64,000 nt of DNA from Nitratidesulfovibrio sp. SRB-5 (lineage in GTDB: Bacteria; Desulfobacterota; Desulfovibrionia; Desulfovibrionales; Desulfovibrionaceae): positions 1,398,650-1,462,649 of the forward strand of contig NZ_JAIOTY010000001.1 in NCBI RefSeq assembly GCF_019931275.1, in the 5' to 3' direction. Position numbers and translations under genes: made by a program. Positions 17,076 to 22,094 of the stretch are shown here, one piece after another. The notes under the pieces are model-generated. The model was given only the letters and a program-made list of their open reading frames with translations. It ran no database searches and was not told where the DNA came from. The stretch's first letter is position 1. Each line of letters begins with the position of its first letter.

Positions 17076-17642
17076 ATGAGTACCATATTCACCGTCGCCG
17101 TCATCGTGGGCAGCCTGCGCAAGGAATCGCTGAACCGCAAGATGGCCAGGGCCCTGGTGGAACTGGGCCCGGCCGCGTTGCGTTTCGAATTCGTGGAAGT
17201 GGGCGGTCTGCCGTTGTACAATCAGGACCTGGACGACGAAGGCACCCCGCCCGCCGCGTGGACCGATTTCCGCAAGTCCATCAAGGGCGTGGACGCAGTG
17301 CTGTTCCTGACCCCGGAATACAACCGCTCCATGCCCGCCACCATCAAGAACGCGCTGGACGTGGGATCGCGCCCGTACGGCAGCAGCGTGTGGAACGGCA
17401 AGCCCGCGGCCATCGTCAGCGTGTCGCCGGGCAACATCGGCGGCTTCGGGGCCAACCATCACCTGCGCCAGTCGCTGGTGTTCCTGAACATGCCCCCGTT
17501 GCAGCAGCCGGAAGCGTACATCGGCGTTGCGGACAAGCTGTTCGGGCCCGATGGCGCCCTGACCGACGCCTCCATGCGCGAGTTCGGCGCCAAGTTCATG
17601 AACGCCTTTGCGGGGTGGATTGCCACCAACGTGAAGCGCTAG
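17076..17642 (+). CDS. NAD(P)H-dependent FMN reductase
   Basis: A 188-residue flavodoxin-like reductase of the chromate/quinone/azo reductase type (YieF/ChrR group). The FMN phosphate loop VGSLRKESLNRKMA is at residues 9-22, the LTPEYNRSMPATIKNALD signature follows at about 75-92, and SPGNIGGFGA near 120 completes the flavin site. ATG 17076 follows CAGGAGAGACACTC. It is monocistronic, with a hairpin after the stop. Confidence 0.92.
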   Translation: MSTIFTVAVIVGSLRKESLNRKMARALVELGPAALRFEFVEVGGLPLYNQDLDDEGTPPAAWTDFRKSIKGVDAVLFLTPEYNRSMPATIKNALDVGSRPYGSSVWNGKPAAIVSVSPGNIGGFGANHHLRQSLVFLNMPPLQQPEAYIGVADKLFGPDGALTDASMREFGAKFMNAFAGWIATNVKR

Positions 17643-17677
17643 CGGGTCGAATAGTCCGTTCACCCGAAGGCATCAGA

Positions 17678-17706
17678 CCCGAAGGGCGCGCAGCGTGCCC
17701 TTCGGG
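17678..17706. terminator. Hairpin after the FMN reductase, first part of repeat copy A
   Basis: Perfect ten-base stem CCCGAAGGGC / GCCCTTCGGG around GCGCAGCGT, 36 bases after the stop. No T-run follows. A decayed version of the same hairpin opens copy B near 31.16 kb, so it is part of the repeat as well as a possible terminator. Confidence 0.6.
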
Positions 17707-17870
17707 CGAGCTACGCGGTCAAACTTCGCCAGCCACATCGGTCGAATACGGGAAGAGTGCGCTGCGGTCCTCATCCGCAAGGCTCGAAACTCGCCCAACG
17801 GCGGAGGCATGCTCCCTCGTGGCTGGCTTGTTTTCCTCGCCAACGAGCGCAAATCCTGCTTCGGCTCTCA
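17678..17870 (+). repeat. Dispersed hairpin repeat, copy A
   Basis: Shares four blocks in the same order with copy B: the CCCGAAGGGC hairpin, GCGGTCAAACTTCG, GTCGAATACG with a following AAGAGT, and the core at 17759-17809 (CATCCGCAAGG, CTCGAAACTCGCCCAACGG, GAGGCAT). A tail GGCTTGTTTTCCTCGCCAA is also shared. The core folds, with CCTCATCCG pairing to CGGCGGAGG. Confidence 0.78.
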
Positions 17871-18099
17871 TGGTGTGATCCATTCGGGGTAAGCGAATGA
17901 TCTGCATGAATCCCTGCGCGACAGCGTGACCCGAGGCAACGACGGCCCGTGTCCCTCCTGAAGGGGCGCGGGCCGTCTGAATTCGCGGGGGTGGCAATCG
18001 GCAGGGGGAAAGCCGGATCTGGTCGCCGGGGCAACGGGGATGGCGGCAGGCGTCAGGGGAAGGCGGGTGGGGCACGGACGCGCCCGCGCCACGTTTCGC

Positions 18100-18315
18100 T
18101 CAGGCCCCTTCGGCCACCAGCCGGGCGTACAGGTCTTCGTGCTCCGGGTACTTCAGCCCCGCACCGGTCACGATGACGCTGGGGCGCAACTGGTCGGAGC
18201 GGGCATCGGTGATGGGCACGATCTCCCAGCGTCCGTCCTCGCGGCCGACGACCAGTTCCTGCTGCTGCCGGTGGGCAAGCTTGATGGCGAGGATGACGGT
18301 TTCCTTGAAGGTCAT
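18100..18315 (-). CDS. Small hypothetical protein
   Basis: A 71-residue soluble protein (KETVILAIKLAHRQQQELVV, then IVPITDARSDQLRPSVIV and KYPEHEDLYARLVAEGA). ATG at 18313-18315 has GGAG at a spacing of five, which supports a real gene. No family was recognised. It lies downstream of the selenoprotein on the same strand but a strong terminator separates the two. Confidence 0.65.
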   Translation of the reverse strand: MTFKETVILAIKLAHRQQQELVVGREDGRWEIVPITDARSDQLRPSVIVTGAGLKYPEHEDLYARLVAEGA

Positions 18316-18482
18316 GATGGCTCCGTGGGCGTTCCTGCGTGCGTGATGCGCGAAGATGCCCGCGCACCCGGCACCGCGTCAAGTGCGGCGGGTGCCGAAA
18401 GCACGGGAGTGTGGTGTGCCCGCCGCGCTGCGCCGTACTGCCGTCGTGTTGTGCGCGCGGCGGTTGTTCCCGTCGGCAAATG

Positions 18483-18507
18483 AAAAACGGCCCTCCGAAG
18501 AGGGCCG
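18483..18507 (-). terminator. Terminator of the selenoprotein gene
   Basis: On the minus strand, CGGCCCTC / GAGGGCCG around the stable tetraloop TTCG is followed by TTTTTC, about 31 bases after the selenoprotein stop. Confidence 0.88.
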
Positions 18508-18538
18508 CTGCGTGTGCGTATGATGCGGATTGCGGGGA

Positions 18539-18859
18539 TTACGAGCCGCAGCTGCCAGCGCTGCCGCAACCGCCGCAGCTGCTGCCGCCGCCAAGCGGCT
18601 TGCCGGATTCCACCGAGAATCCCATGTAGCTGATGTCGATGCGGATGGATTCCGCCATGGTCAGAAGTTCGGCGTTCACGCAGAAGGTGTAGCCGCCTTC
18701 CTCGAAGACTTTGTCGGTATCGTTAGGCTCATCCAGAGCCAGGGCCAGCCGGGGACCGCTTCAGCCGCCGGGGGCAAGGTAGACCCGGATGGGGTTCTTC
18801 TGCTTGTCCGCAAAGTAGGCATCAAGCTCTTTGCGGGCGTTTTCGGTGATTTCGAACAT
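18539..18859 (-). CDS. HesB/IscA-like selenoprotein (Sec at residue 33, in-frame UGA)
   Basis: A 106-residue A-type carrier-like protein if the in-frame TGA at 18761-18763 is read as selenocysteine. The product begins MFEITENARKELDAYF, reaches PGGUSGP at residues 30-36, continues with EEGGYTFCVN (Cys60) and GFSVESGKPL, and ends in a Cys-Gly tail with Cys95, Cys98 and Cys104. Sec stands where IscA/HesB proteins have their first conserved Cys, and HesB-like selenoproteins are a known family in sulfate reducers. ATG 18857-18859 is preceded by GGAGG. Twenty nucleotides after the UGA a stem GGCUC / GAGCC with loop UGGAU could serve as the bacterial SECIS. Similarity continues without a frame change on both sides of the UGA, so a nonsense mutation is unlikely. 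Confidence 0.9.
18726..18740 (-). promoter_or_regulatory. Candidate SECIS stem-loop
   Basis: Perfect five-base stem GGCUC / GAGCC with a UGGAU loop on the mRNA, beginning 20 nucleotides after the UGA Sec codon. That is inside the distance used by bacterial SECIS elements, and the loop contains the GG expected for SelB contact. The stem is short, so the call is moderate. Confidence 0.5.
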
Positions 18860-19108
18860 GTGTCCTCCACTGTTGGATGTGCGGAGAGCAACAAGTACGT
18901 ATCCGAGGGGTGTTTGTCAATGAGTCGCGCCGATGCCTATAGCAAGCATCTATGGATTGGGGGCCGGGCGGGCAGGCCGAAGCTGCGGCTGCACCAGAAA
19001 AAAAGGCTGCACGAATGCAACCCATTGGATTCATGAATGGCGGGGGCATGGGGGCGGCGCGTGCCGGACGGGCCCGGCAAAGGGCGTGATGCCAATGGCG
19101 GGGCGGCC

Positions 19109-19402
19109 TCAGGATGCGTCGGACGTGCGCGCGCTGAGGGGCCGTTCGGAAACCACTTCGAATCCGGCGTTGCGCGCCCGGATGCGCACGGCACCCACCT
19201 GCTGGGCCAGCCGCTGGCTGATGCAGAAGGTGTAGCCGTCCACCTGCATCACATGGTCGCGTTCGGTGGGTTCGTCGGGACCCAGCACGAGGTGCGGCCC
19301 CTTGCTGCCGCGAGGCGAAACGTAGATGCGGATGGGGCTTTGGGGGTTTTCCGAAAAGTATTCTTCCAGAATGCCCCGTGCGTCGTGTTCGAGGGTGATC
19401 AT
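19109..19402 (-). CDS. HesB-like paralogue with Ser in place of Sec/Cys
   Basis: A 97-residue protein that aligns without gaps to the neighbouring selenoprotein over residues 1-89: IRIYVSPRGSKGPHL against IRVYLAPGGUSGPRL, and DGYTFCIS against GGYTFCVN. Residue 33 is Ser where the neighbour has Sec, and the C-terminal Cys-Gly tail is missing; only Cys60 is shared. It therefore cannot hold an Fe-S cluster in the usual A-type way. ATG 19400-19402 follows AAGGAAACGG. The 249-base gap to the selenoprotein leaves open whether both are in one transcript. A tandem duplication with divergence is the simplest origin. Confidence 0.82.
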   Translation of the reverse strand: MITLEHDARGILEEYFSENPQSPIRIYVSPRGSKGPHLVLGPDEPTERDHVMQVDGYTFCISQRLAQQVGAVRIRARNAGFEVVSERPLSARTSDAS

Positions 19403-19633
19403 GTCCGTTTCCTTGCGGCCTGTGGCGACGTTGGGCCATACCCTACCGCAGAACTGGTGAAAAGGCCAACCGAATGAGCGCGCGATGACCGCGCAATGGC
19501 CCTGCGGTGCCGACGGGGAGCGTAACAGTGCGCCAGCGCGCCCCCAAAGTCTGGCCGTGGACGGTTTGCCAAGCCGCCGGAAACCGGTTAGCAATGAAGA
19601 TAGCTACCAATTCCCACCGGACGGGTGAACCCG

Positions 19634-20167
19634 ATGGAACAGACCATTCTGCTGACGGAAGAGGAAATGCGCCGGGCACTGGAGCGCTTGGCCTATCAGG
19701 TGCTGGAACGCCACGGCGAGTGTGCGGGCCTTGTGCTTGTGGGCATCCAGCGGCGGGGGGCCGACATCGCGGCCCGTCTTGGCCGCGTCATCGCCGAGCG
19801 CCTTGGCTGCGTGTTGCCATCGGGCGCGCTGGACATCAACCTGTACCGCGACGACTGGACCACCCTGTCCGCCAAGCCCGCCATCGGGCCGTCGGACATT
19901 CCCGTGGATCTGGACGGGCGGGACGTGCTGCTGGTGGACGACGTGCTGTTCACCGGGCGCACCATCCGCGCCGCGCTGGAGGCACTGCTGGACTACGGCA
20001 GGCCCCGCCGCGTTGAACTGTTGGTGCTGGTGGACCGGGGGCATCGCGAATTGCCCATCCACGCCGACTACGTGGGCCGCACCGTGAACACGGGCCGCAA
20101 CGAGCAGGTGGACGTGCTGCTGCGCGAGCGCGACGGGCGGGACGAGGTGTTGTTGTCCTCTCATTAG
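19634..20167 (+). CDS. pyrR: PyrR bifunctional regulator/uracil phosphoribosyltransferase
   Basis: A 177-residue PRTase-fold protein of the PyrR family. It binds UMP and attenuates pyr mRNA in many bacteria and has weak uracil phosphoribosyltransferase activity. The PRPP-binding motif is VLLVDDVLFTGRTIRAALEA at about residues 95-114. The N-terminal LVGIQRRGADIAARL and the family's GALDINLYRDDW are clear, and the C-terminal VDRGHRELPI is typical. ATG 19634 is used; GTG 19625 is the alternative. No pyr biosynthesis gene is next to it, so any target would be elsewhere. Confidence 0.92.
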   Translation: MEQTILLTEEEMRRALERLAYQVLERHGECAGLVLVGIQRRGADIAARLGRVIAERLGCVLPSGALDINLYRDDWTTLSAKPAIGPSDIPVDLDGRDVLLVDDVLFTGRTIRAALEALLDYGRPRRVELLVLVDRGHRELPIHADYVGRTVNTGRNEQVDVLLRERDGRDEVLLSSH

Positions 20168-20216
20168 GGCGGCGGGTTTCTGCATATCCGCGCCGCCCGC
20201 GTGTGGCGCATGAAAA

Positions 20217-20249
20217 ACGGGGCGATGCCGTGTTGCGGCGCCGCCCCGT
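20217..20249. terminator. Hairpin between convergent pyrR and the MprF-like gene
   Basis: Eight-base stem ACGGGGCG / CGCCCCGT 50 bases after the pyrR stop, with an A-run before and TTGT after it, so it could act on both strands. Confidence 0.6.
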
Positions 20250-20256
20250 TGTCATT

Positions 20257-20304
20257 CCGTTGCTGTGTCTGTTGTCGTGTCCGTTGCTGTGTCTGTTGTC
20301 GCGC
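20257..20304. repeat. 24-bp direct repeat, two copies
   Basis: CCGTTGCTGTGTCTGTTGTC plus four bases, repeated twice in direct contact in the gap between pyrR and the MprF-like gene; the second copy differs only in its last bases. Confidence 0.8.
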
Positions 20305-20330
20305 CGTGCGCGAAAGATGCAAGGGAGCTG

Positions 20331-22094
20331 CTAGTCGTTTCCAGGCTTGCCGGTCTGGCCGTTATGGCCGTTATGATTGGACTGGCCGTTATGGTCGGCA
20401 TGCTCCGGCTTCTTGCGGCGCAGGGCATTTTCGCGGATGCGCTGGGCCGCGCGGTAGATGCGCCGGAACCGTTCGCGCCGCGCCGCGGTGAATTCTCCAA
20501 GGCGTCCGTGCAGCGGAAAGGCCATGCGCCGCAGCATGAACACCGCCAGCACAATGGCTATGCCGCCAAAGGCACGCAGCAGGCGGGCGGCGTCATTTTC
20601 CGCCGCGAAGGTCCACCACAGGTCGGCGGTGTAGGGCACACGACCGTGCACGAACAGCCCCAGCAGCAGGGCACAGCCCACCACCAGCAGCACCGCCACC
20701 ATCCAGCGCACGGTGAATCGTTCGCGCAGCAGCGAGGTGCGGCGGAAGAAGCGCCGTCGGGTCACGCACAACGAGGCCAGCACCAGCGCCAGCAGGATGG
20801 CTTCCTGCCAGTCCAGCCCCTTCAGCACGCAACTGGCGATGCCCAGCACCACCAGCGCAGTCACCAGCCGCCAGGCCGAAGCCAGGCGGCGTTGCAGCCC
20901 GCGTGAAAGCAGCAGCAGCCCCACCCCCGCCACGCCGCCCATGAAGTGGGCGGATTCCATGGCCCACAGCGGCACGCTGGCCGCCAGCACGGCACGGCTG
21001 TCCGCAGCAAGGGGGATGGCGCTGGAGAACAGCAGGATCAGCCCCGCGGCAAAGGCCAGGTAGGCCATCAGGGTATGCGACAGGGCGTCGGTCCAGCGGC
21101 CCGCCTCGTCCAGCATCCGTTCCGCCTCGTGGCGGCGCAGGTGCAGTTCGTGCCCGCCCAGCAGCACGGCGGCGAACAGCAGCGGCAGCAGGTAGTAGAT
21201 GAACCGGAAGCTGATCAGCGCGGCAATGACCGTCTGGGGCGAATGGGTGTGCGACAGGCTGAGGATGACCAGTTCGAACACGCCCGCGCCGCCGGGCACG
21301 TGGCTGAGCACCACGGCCACGACGGCCATCAGGTACACGGAAAGAAACTGGATGAAGTCCAGCCCGAGATCGGCGGGCATCAGCACGAACAGGCAGCCCG
21401 CCGCCACCACCAGGTCCAGCCCGGCCACCAGGGTCTGCATGATGGCCAGCCGGAAGGGCGGCAGCGCGAATTCCTTGCCCATGACCTTGATGGGGTGCTT
21501 CGCCACCAGCGTCAGGATGTGGTAGCCGATGGTCAGCGCCAGCAGCACCACGCCCAGCAGGCGCACGTCGCGCACGGGAATGTCGAGCGATTCGGGCACC
21601 GGCAGCGGCTGGATGATGAACACGGCACCGGCCACGCCCAGCGCGCCCACCCAGAAGGTGATGGCCAGCATGACCACCAGGCGCACCACGTCCACCACCG
21701 AAAAGCCCCAGGCCGAATAGAACCGGTAGCGCACCGAGCTGCCGCCCAGCAGCGCCCCGAAGTTGTAGCTGGTCACGCAGCCCACGAACGAGACAAGGGC
21801 GGTGCGGGTGAGGGAAAGCGGCTTGTTGATGGCGCGCAGCGCCAGCGCGTCGTACCCCACCAGCACCAGGTAGTTGAACACCATCAGCACAATGGAGGCC
21901 ACGATGCTGGTCATGGGCATCTGGCGCATGCTCTCGCGGATTTCGTCGATATGGTATTTGCTGACTTCGTTGTACAGCAGCCACACCGCTCCGCAGAATA
22001 CTGCGAACACCGCAACCTTGCCCAGCGAACGCAGGTGTTTCTTCCACGGTGGGGAATGCTTGGGAGCGGCGGAATCGACGTCTGTGTGCTTCAT
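20331..22094 (-). CDS. MprF-type flippase-domain membrane protein without synthase domain
   Basis: A 587-residue polytopic membrane protein related to the N-terminal flippase region of lysyl-phosphatidylglycerol synthetase MprF (UPF0104). About 13-14 hydrophobic segments are visible. Characteristic stretches are NFGALLGGSSVRYRFYSAWG, LSHVPGGAGVFELVILSLSH and RFIYYLLPLLFAAVLLGGHE. The soluble C-terminal aminoacyl-phosphatidylglycerol synthase domain of MprF is absent; instead the protein ends in a basic segment and a His/Asn/Gly tail (NGQSNHNGHNGQTGKPGND) encoded by 9-bp repeats. It may move a lipid or isoprenoid-linked substrate. ATG 22092-22094; the upstream 790 bases carry no gene. Confidence 0.82.
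   Translation of the reverse strand: MKHTDVDSAAPKHSPPWKKHLRSLGKVAVFAVFCGAVWLLYNEVSKYHIDEIRESMRQMPMTSIVASIVLMVFNYLVLVGYDALALRAINKPLSLTRTALVSFVGCVTSYNFGALLGGSSVRYRFYSAWGFSVVDVVRLVVMLAITFWVGALGVAGAVFIIQPLPVPESLDIPVRDVRLLGVVLLALTIGYHILTLVAKHPIKVMGKEFALPPFRLAIMQTLVAGLDLVVAAGCLFVLMPADLGLDFIQFLSVYLMAVVAVVLSHVPGGAGVFELVILSLSHTHSPQTVIAALISFRFIYYLLPLLFAAVLLGGHELHLRRHEAERMLDEAGRWTDALSHTLMAYLAFAAGLILLFSSAIPLAADSRAVLAASVPLWAMESAHFMGGVAGVGLLLLSRGLQRRLASAWRLVTALVVLGIASCVLKGLDWQEAILLALVLASLCVTRRRFFRRTSLLRERFTVRWMVAVLLVVGCALLLGLFVHGRVPYTADLWWTFAAENDAARLLRAFGGIAIVLAVFMLRRMAFPLHGRLGEFTAARRERFRRIYRAAQRIRENALRRKKPEHADHNGQSNHNGHNGQTGKPGND

Follow-up and report, generated by a model that had tools for sequence, protein, structure and literature searches.

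A HesB-like selenoprotein gene and its ligand-less serine paralogue in Nitratidesulfovibrio

In the A-type iron–sulfur (Fe–S) carrier IscA, the cluster ligands are Cys35 and a CxC end, and in the ISCA1–ISCA2 hetero-complex two unequal A-type copies act together, with ligand cysteines in both subunits. Here we describe an unequal pair of A-type genes in a 64,000-nucleotide stretch of the Nitratidesulfovibrio sp. SRB-5 genome (the window; RefSeq assembly GCF_019931275.1, contig NZ_JAIOTY010000001.1, positions 1,398,650 to 1,462,649). One is a HesB/IscA-like gene on the minus strand (18859..18539) whose codon 33 is an in-frame TGA, most probably translated as selenocysteine (Sec); the other, upstream on the same strand, is a paralogue with serine at that position. 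We call them the Sec gene and the Ser copy. We think it reasonably probable that the Sec gene encodes an A-type selenoprotein carrier and that selection maintains the Ser copy as a ligand-less partner descended from a copy with cysteine at residue 33 (Cys33). Unlike the subunits of ISCA1–ISCA2, the Ser copy would then be a subunit without any ligand cysteine.

The Sec gene is of a type already known in print, and the original prediction, made from the window's letters, was right that such proteins exist among sulfate reducers: a table in PMC1794560 lists a HesB-like selenoprotein for D. vulgaris, and a table in PMC1914089 names its gene as DVU_1382, of which the window gene is probably the counterpart in Nitratidesulfovibrio. 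Compared with the described HesB-like selenoproteins, the window gene is a plain member of the NCBIfam family NF038090 (IscA_HesB_Se; 118.1 bits, cutoff 85), with its TGA at the ligand position, but scores only 29.9 bits, under the cutoff of 66.35, with the sister model TIGR01911 (HesB_rel_seleno), which two reviews, PMC13188914 and PMC9312934, give for the group. In M. maripaludis, a HesB-like selenoprotein was found through mutagenesis and 75Se labelling, and its function is called not clear in the accessible text of PMC11097638. The open-access literature, including the accessible portions of PMC13188914, PMC9312934 and PMC11097638, yielded no description of a Ser copy of a HesB selenoprotein; the same literature yielded nothing on DVU1381 or DVU1383 beyond the paper naming DVU1382, and nothing on HesB fitness in Desulfovibrio.

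Predicted decoding of the selenocysteine gene

The Sec frame encodes 106 residues, contains one TGA, at codon 33 within PGG-U-SGP, and ends at TAA; its C-terminal tail is SSCGGCGSAGSCGS. We take Sec33 to lie at the position of the first cluster-ligand cysteine of IscA, with the Cys-rich tail presumably standing in for the CxC end. By hmmscan, the protein matched Pfam PF01521 at 30.8 bits (cutoff 26.3); with TIGR00049, the model of canonical A-type carriers, the gene scored 36.3 bits directly and 28.3 bits in a scan of the genome, both under the cutoff of 58.8. A GGAGG sequence precedes the start codon in all eight Nitratidesulfovibrio genomes of our genus sample, which includes that of the window, in keeping with the good ribosome site originally proposed. 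A mechanical list of open reading frames (ORFs) of at least 60 codons missed the gene, as had been foreseen for standard gene callers; because the gene is published and an NCBI family model exists, only naive callers should split or miss it.

Multiple lines of evidence support decoding of the TGA as Sec. First, the codon and the protein on both sides of it are conserved. Of 149 genomes searched in the family, 139 matched NF038090, and we collected HesB stretches from 85 of these; as sampling was from the best matches, weak copies without ligands are under-represented. After removal of four duplicates from 164 rows, residue 33 was Sec in 81, Cys in 65, Ser in eight, Ala in three and Glu in three; 20 further regions (one a 100-base filler) and loci from the scan of the order described below were left out of these counts. 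The 81 Sec rows come from 81 of the 85 genomes and span 28 genera; in each, the aligned codon is TGA and protein similarity extends to either side. Of the four genomes lacking such a row, one (G015) has a TGA copy in an additional stretch. The Sec residue is number 32 in five Sec rows (L100 and L106–L109; genera g40 and g25), where the preceding loop is one residue shorter.

Second, the small stem-loop originally noted 20 nt after the TGA is a hairpin resembling a bacterial Sec insertion sequence (bSECIS) that is kept across the family. The motif GGCTCTGGAYGAGYC, starting 20 nt after the TGA, is found in 79 of 81 Sec rows, one of 65 Cys rows and none of the eight Ser rows, and all five pairs are standard in 77/77 distinct Sec stretches, 1/63 Cys stretches and 0/8 Ser stretches. 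The two Sec rows lacking the motif also retain the pairing, in one case with both members of one pair altered. The codon for Ala41 is GCT in 81/81 Sec rows versus 6/65 Cys rows (Fisher p 2e-34, overstated as the rows are related), and GCT is used at 97 of 562 other alanine codons of the Sec genes. The folding energy of the single sequence gave no signal (z 0.11), for which reason the comparative test was used instead, and an Rfam search over 17600–20400 returned no SECIS match, only one at chance level (E 4); the case for the hairpin thus rests on the comparison.

Third, the ratio of nonsynonymous to synonymous divergence (dN/dS) among the genus genomes is 0.18 both before and after the TGA (residues 34–88 after it), so the sequence beyond the codon is conserved as protein. 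Finally, the genome, estimated to be 99.98% complete, contains the decoding machinery whose presence had been proposed as a check, with all scores over the respective cutoffs: tRNA-Sec (83.6 bits), SelA (615.7 bits), SelB (358.6 bits) and SelD (352.5 bits). The comparative case that the Sec gene is a selenoprotein gene is strong, and Sec would be inserted at codon 33 in the cell.

Several side observations concern the same components. A second tRNA-Sec match, at 49 bits, is barely over the cutoff of 47, and the SelD gene (G000:C1:1354528-1355460) holds its own in-frame TGA and is itself likely to encode a selenoprotein. Within the genus, dS of the Sec gene is 0.107–0.112 compared to 0.219–0.285 for four neighbours. 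It is low also before the TGA (0.039 for residues 1–32), and more than the SECIS hairpin must therefore constrain its synonymous sites; high expression is perhaps the cause.

A serine paralogue without cluster ligands

The original prediction described the upstream gene as a gapless paralogue with Ser33 and no Cys tail, and the alignment agrees: a gap-free match of the Ser copy to the Sec protein spans 94 residues (38% identity), placing Ser33 opposite Sec33 and showing Cys60 in both. It scores 62.6 bits with NF038090, below the cutoff of 85, and 13.3 bits with PF01521, below the cutoff of 26.3. None of the three Cys or Sec ligands of an A-type set is present, as there is none at residue 33 and none in the tail. 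Ser33 (codon AGC), Cys60 and a tail without Cys are found in 8/8 genus genomes. The suggestion that one copy had lost cluster or selenium chemistry is supported by this loss of ligands and by the selection described below. Cys60, proposed as a shared feature, is common to the pair and fixed in all eight Ser copies but variable in the family, where it occurs in only 19/82 Sec and 11/67 Cys rows (duplicates included). We rejected Cys60 as a conserved family ligand: with the residue present in only part of the ligand-bearing relatives, nothing marks it as one.

These residues bear on the alternative that the Ser copy is a variant carrier, in which metal or a cluster is bound by the Ser33 oxygen together with Cys60 or residues from a partner subunit. 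The invariance of Ser33 and Cys60 in all eight genomes and the loop P-R-G-S-x-G-P, which has the length of a ligand loop, are what such a carrier might display; absence of the Cys tail from the same eight genomes and the patchy distribution of Cys60 among relatives with ligands make it unlikely in our judgment.

The Ser copy is under purifying selection. Over residues 1–88, its dN/dS is 0.175 (mean dN 0.050, dS 0.287; 28 pairs). Over the full frame, dN is 0.060, the highest of five genes compared (0.005–0.029 for the others), and dS is 0.285, similar to that of three neighbours (0.219–0.278). From the ratio, the high dN and the ordinary dS, we conclude that the gene is retained while its protein evolves faster than those of its neighbours. 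The high dN could also be read as the mark of a fading duplicate, without function and not yet lost. That reading is quite unlikely, as it must contend with an open frame and Ser33 in eight of eight genomes, with a stretch before the start codon that is similar in all of them and with the low dN/dS. By sequence, the Ser copy is a ligand-less variant under selection, present in 8/8 genus genomes.

The Ser type is restricted to the genus within our sample. A profile built from the eight Ser proteins, run over 297 genomes of the order, matched all seven genus genomes included (E ≤1.9e-58), and its best match among the 290 genomes outside the genus was a Sec copy (E 5.8e-24); the 30 loci returned were inspected at residue 33. 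A strongly diverged Ser type may occur elsewhere. Searching named genomes with the Ser protein gave three relatives, from Nitratidesulfovibrio oxamicus, Nitratidesulfovibrio liaohensis and Desulfovibrio sp. MAG.

Structural models predict an A-type fold for both proteins, with IscA 1x0g as the best solved match of each. For the Ser protein, the predicted local distance difference test (pLDDT) score was 89.9 and the match had E 9.3e-6; for the Sec protein, modelled with Cys in place of Sec, the values were 80.7 and 1.6e-7. Structures of the IscA, SufA and ErpA group (1x0g, 1s98, 1r94 and 2d2a) were among the best fold matches of both models; the Ser copy differs from these carriers in lacking all ligand positions, and the Sec and Cys copies differ in scoring under the TIGR00049 cutoff. 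Among the fold matches to the Ser model, DsrR of Allochromatium vinosum (2k4z) ranked tenth (E 2.4e-3, 16% identity, template-modelling scores 0.60/0.49), behind nine others that include IscA and SufA. Compared to DsrR, the Ser copy differs in sequence and adjoins a selenoprotein of its own superfamily. DsrR is placed in four phyla, with Desulfobacterota not among them, in the accessible part of PMC11406059.

Locus, neighbours and origin

Features of the locus are collected in Table 1. The gene divergent from the pair, which we take from its motif to be phosphoribosyltransferase-like, has a counterpart near HesB copies at 21 of the 27 loci examined, and the 71-residue ORF at 3 of the 25 loci examined in other genera. 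The locus neighbours that we read were ilvC, a reductase-like gene and the transferase-like gene. The terminator originally proposed after the Sec gene is present as a stem with a T-run that matches the consensus; three terminator-like stems were found in the stretch searched, compared to 1.2 expected from shuffles. In the interval between the Ser and Sec genes, a T-run of at least five occurs in 3/8 genus genomes and is not firmly conserved.

Table 1. Positions of the Sec gene, the Ser copy and surrounding features within the window
Feature	Position	Strand	Remarks
HesB/IscA-like selenoprotein gene	18539..18859	-	106 aa, Sec33, C-terminal Cys tail; NF038090, PF01521
TGA at codon 33, most probably decoded as Sec	18761..18763	-	aligned TGA in 81/85 genomes
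bSECIS-like hairpin GGCTC-TGGAT-GAGCC	18726..18740	-	starts exactly 20 nt after the TGA
Ser33 paralogue	19109..19402	-	97 aa, no Cys tail, Cys60 the sole cysteine; NF038090 below cutoff
Terminator-like stem with T-run, 3' of the Sec gene	18486..18509	-	consensus match only
Terminator-like stem and T-run between the Ser and Sec genes	19004..19023	-	consensus match
Phosphoribosyltransferase-like gene, divergent	19637..20167	+	also near HesB copies outside the genus
71-residue ORF downstream of the Sec gene	18100..18315	-	in 8 genus genomes

Side-by-side copies are common in the family. In at least 61 of 81 loci, and in 19 of 28 genera, the Sec gene has a same-strand companion copy without Sec no more than 1.5 kb away, the count being a lower bound as flanks vary between loci and some contigs end early. 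Of these neighbours, 53 are Cys copies (39 downstream and 14 upstream of the Sec gene) and eight are Ser copies, all upstream. Each of the eight genus genomes has three NF038090 matches, and the window's genome has its Cys33 copy elsewhere (G000:C2:63492-63782).

Descent of the Ser copy from an upstream Cys partner is the best reading of four observations. First, the eight Ser rows form one clade (support 100/100) on a branch of 1.47 and group with three Cys copies from genus g22 (91/77, short of the level at which branches were starred). Second, these three g22 copies lie 522–538 nt upstream of their own Sec genes, compared to 543 nt for the window's Ser copy. Third, they adjoin the same transferase-like gene as the window pair. 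Finally, a single base change separates AGC from TGC, compared to two for TGA. An origin from a Cys33 partner thus appears more likely than one from the Sec copy.

Copies without Cys33 also occur outside the genus. In genus g26, a third HesB copy lacking Cys33 stands beside the Sec and Cys copies, with Ala or Glu at residue 33 in six genomes and Asp in two more; it follows the other two copies and keeps a Cys tail (L038, L040, L041, L043, L046, L050, L164 and L165). In genus g39, the Sec neighbour lacks both Cys33 and the GP motif (L150–L153; G086, G039, G067 and G113) and keeps the Cys tail in three of four cases, the fourth, at a contig end, being incomplete. One g5 genome (G236) has a Cys33-less copy beside its Sec and Cys copies, and one g27 genome (G059) has such a copy apart from its Sec gene. 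These retain at least one tail Cys, and only the Ser type has none. A quick tree requires four changes to account for the Cys33-less copies, of which starred branches force two. A single origin is disfavoured, yet one clade is not rejected (approximately unbiased test, p 0.193); repeated loss of Cys33 is favoured but not proven. One 2.5-Mb family genome (G001; L154) has nine NF038090 matches, compared to one to three in most others.

Proposed roles of the two copies

Most likely, the Sec protein would bind iron or Fe–S clusters and hand them on. A scan of the genome with TIGR00049 found no canonical A-type carrier, matching only the Sec copy and the distant Cys copy (30.7 bits for the latter), both under the cutoff of 58.8. 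The genome does contain a NifU_N protein and a SufBD protein, and the accessible text of PMC2682760 reports A-type carriers to be absent in many Delta-Proteobacteria. As no canonical carrier was found, the Sec protein and the distant Cys33 copy are natural candidates for the A-type job of this genome, which they would share.

The Ser copy would descend from the Cys33 neighbour that accompanies the Sec gene across much of the family, and would have retained the fold while losing ligand 33 and the tail. With those ligands gone, it should not carry a cluster alone. It may instead be kept as a protein partner, either pairing as a subunit with the Sec or Cys copy or serving as an adaptor or regulator similar to DsrR. 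The original prediction proposed such a partner or regulator, and by analogy with the DsrR precedent a cluster-free protein in one of these roles is the most likely assignment; the Ser protein perhaps works like DsrR.

Several points weigh against this assignment of roles. Serine can ligate metals, and Cys60 remains in the Ser copy. The stem between the Ser and Sec genes speaks weakly against a single transcript. The Ser clade was placed on its long branch with moderate support in a tree of 96 columns, and a smaller tree without the three g22 rows leaves its position unsettled. The absence of canonical carriers comes from one scan, and the same kind of genome search with PF01521 missed all family members; its zero matches, contradicted by the hmmscan result for the Sec protein and by the NF038090 matches in the genome, were not used. 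The Sec protein need not be important, moreover, as the available text of PMC11097638 describes the M. maripaludis HesB-like selenoprotein mutant as viable and quotes an unpublished observation that it still fixed nitrogen.

Two further alternatives were considered. In one, the Sec and Cys copies are used when selenium is rich or poor, respectively, the distant Cys copy being the back-up in this genus and the Ser copy helping in control. Sec and Cys copies do stand side by side in 53/81 loci, and the accessible portion of PMC11097638 describes Cys isoforms that replace selenoproteins in selenium-short M. maripaludis; the switch described there uses a LysR-type regulator, the model of the 97-residue Ser protein predicts an A-type fold only, and we give this explanation very little credence. 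In the other, translation truly ends at the TGA, leaving a pseudogene or a peptide of 32 residues; this is barely credible, since only the codon itself and the silence of folding energy and Rfam speak for it against the TGA copies with conserved protein beyond the codon in 81/85 genomes, a hairpin kept at synonymous sites, equal constraint on residues 34–88 and complete Sec machinery.

If the Ser copy is a ligand-less partner of the Sec protein, as we favor, the Cys33-less copies in other genera invite a broader, doubtful proposal that we offer tentatively: a second A-type copy may have turned repeatedly into the ligand-free subunit of an unequal selenium pair, in which one chain would perform the metal chemistry and the other would contribute shape alone, as a pseudo-carrier that would chaperone, target or restrain the Sec chain. 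The genus, which has N. vulgaris as its model member, provides a natural trio of a Sec, a Cys and a ligand-free copy where no canonical A-type carrier was found. It lets one ask what selenium adds to Fe–S carriage and what a ligand-free A-type protein does.
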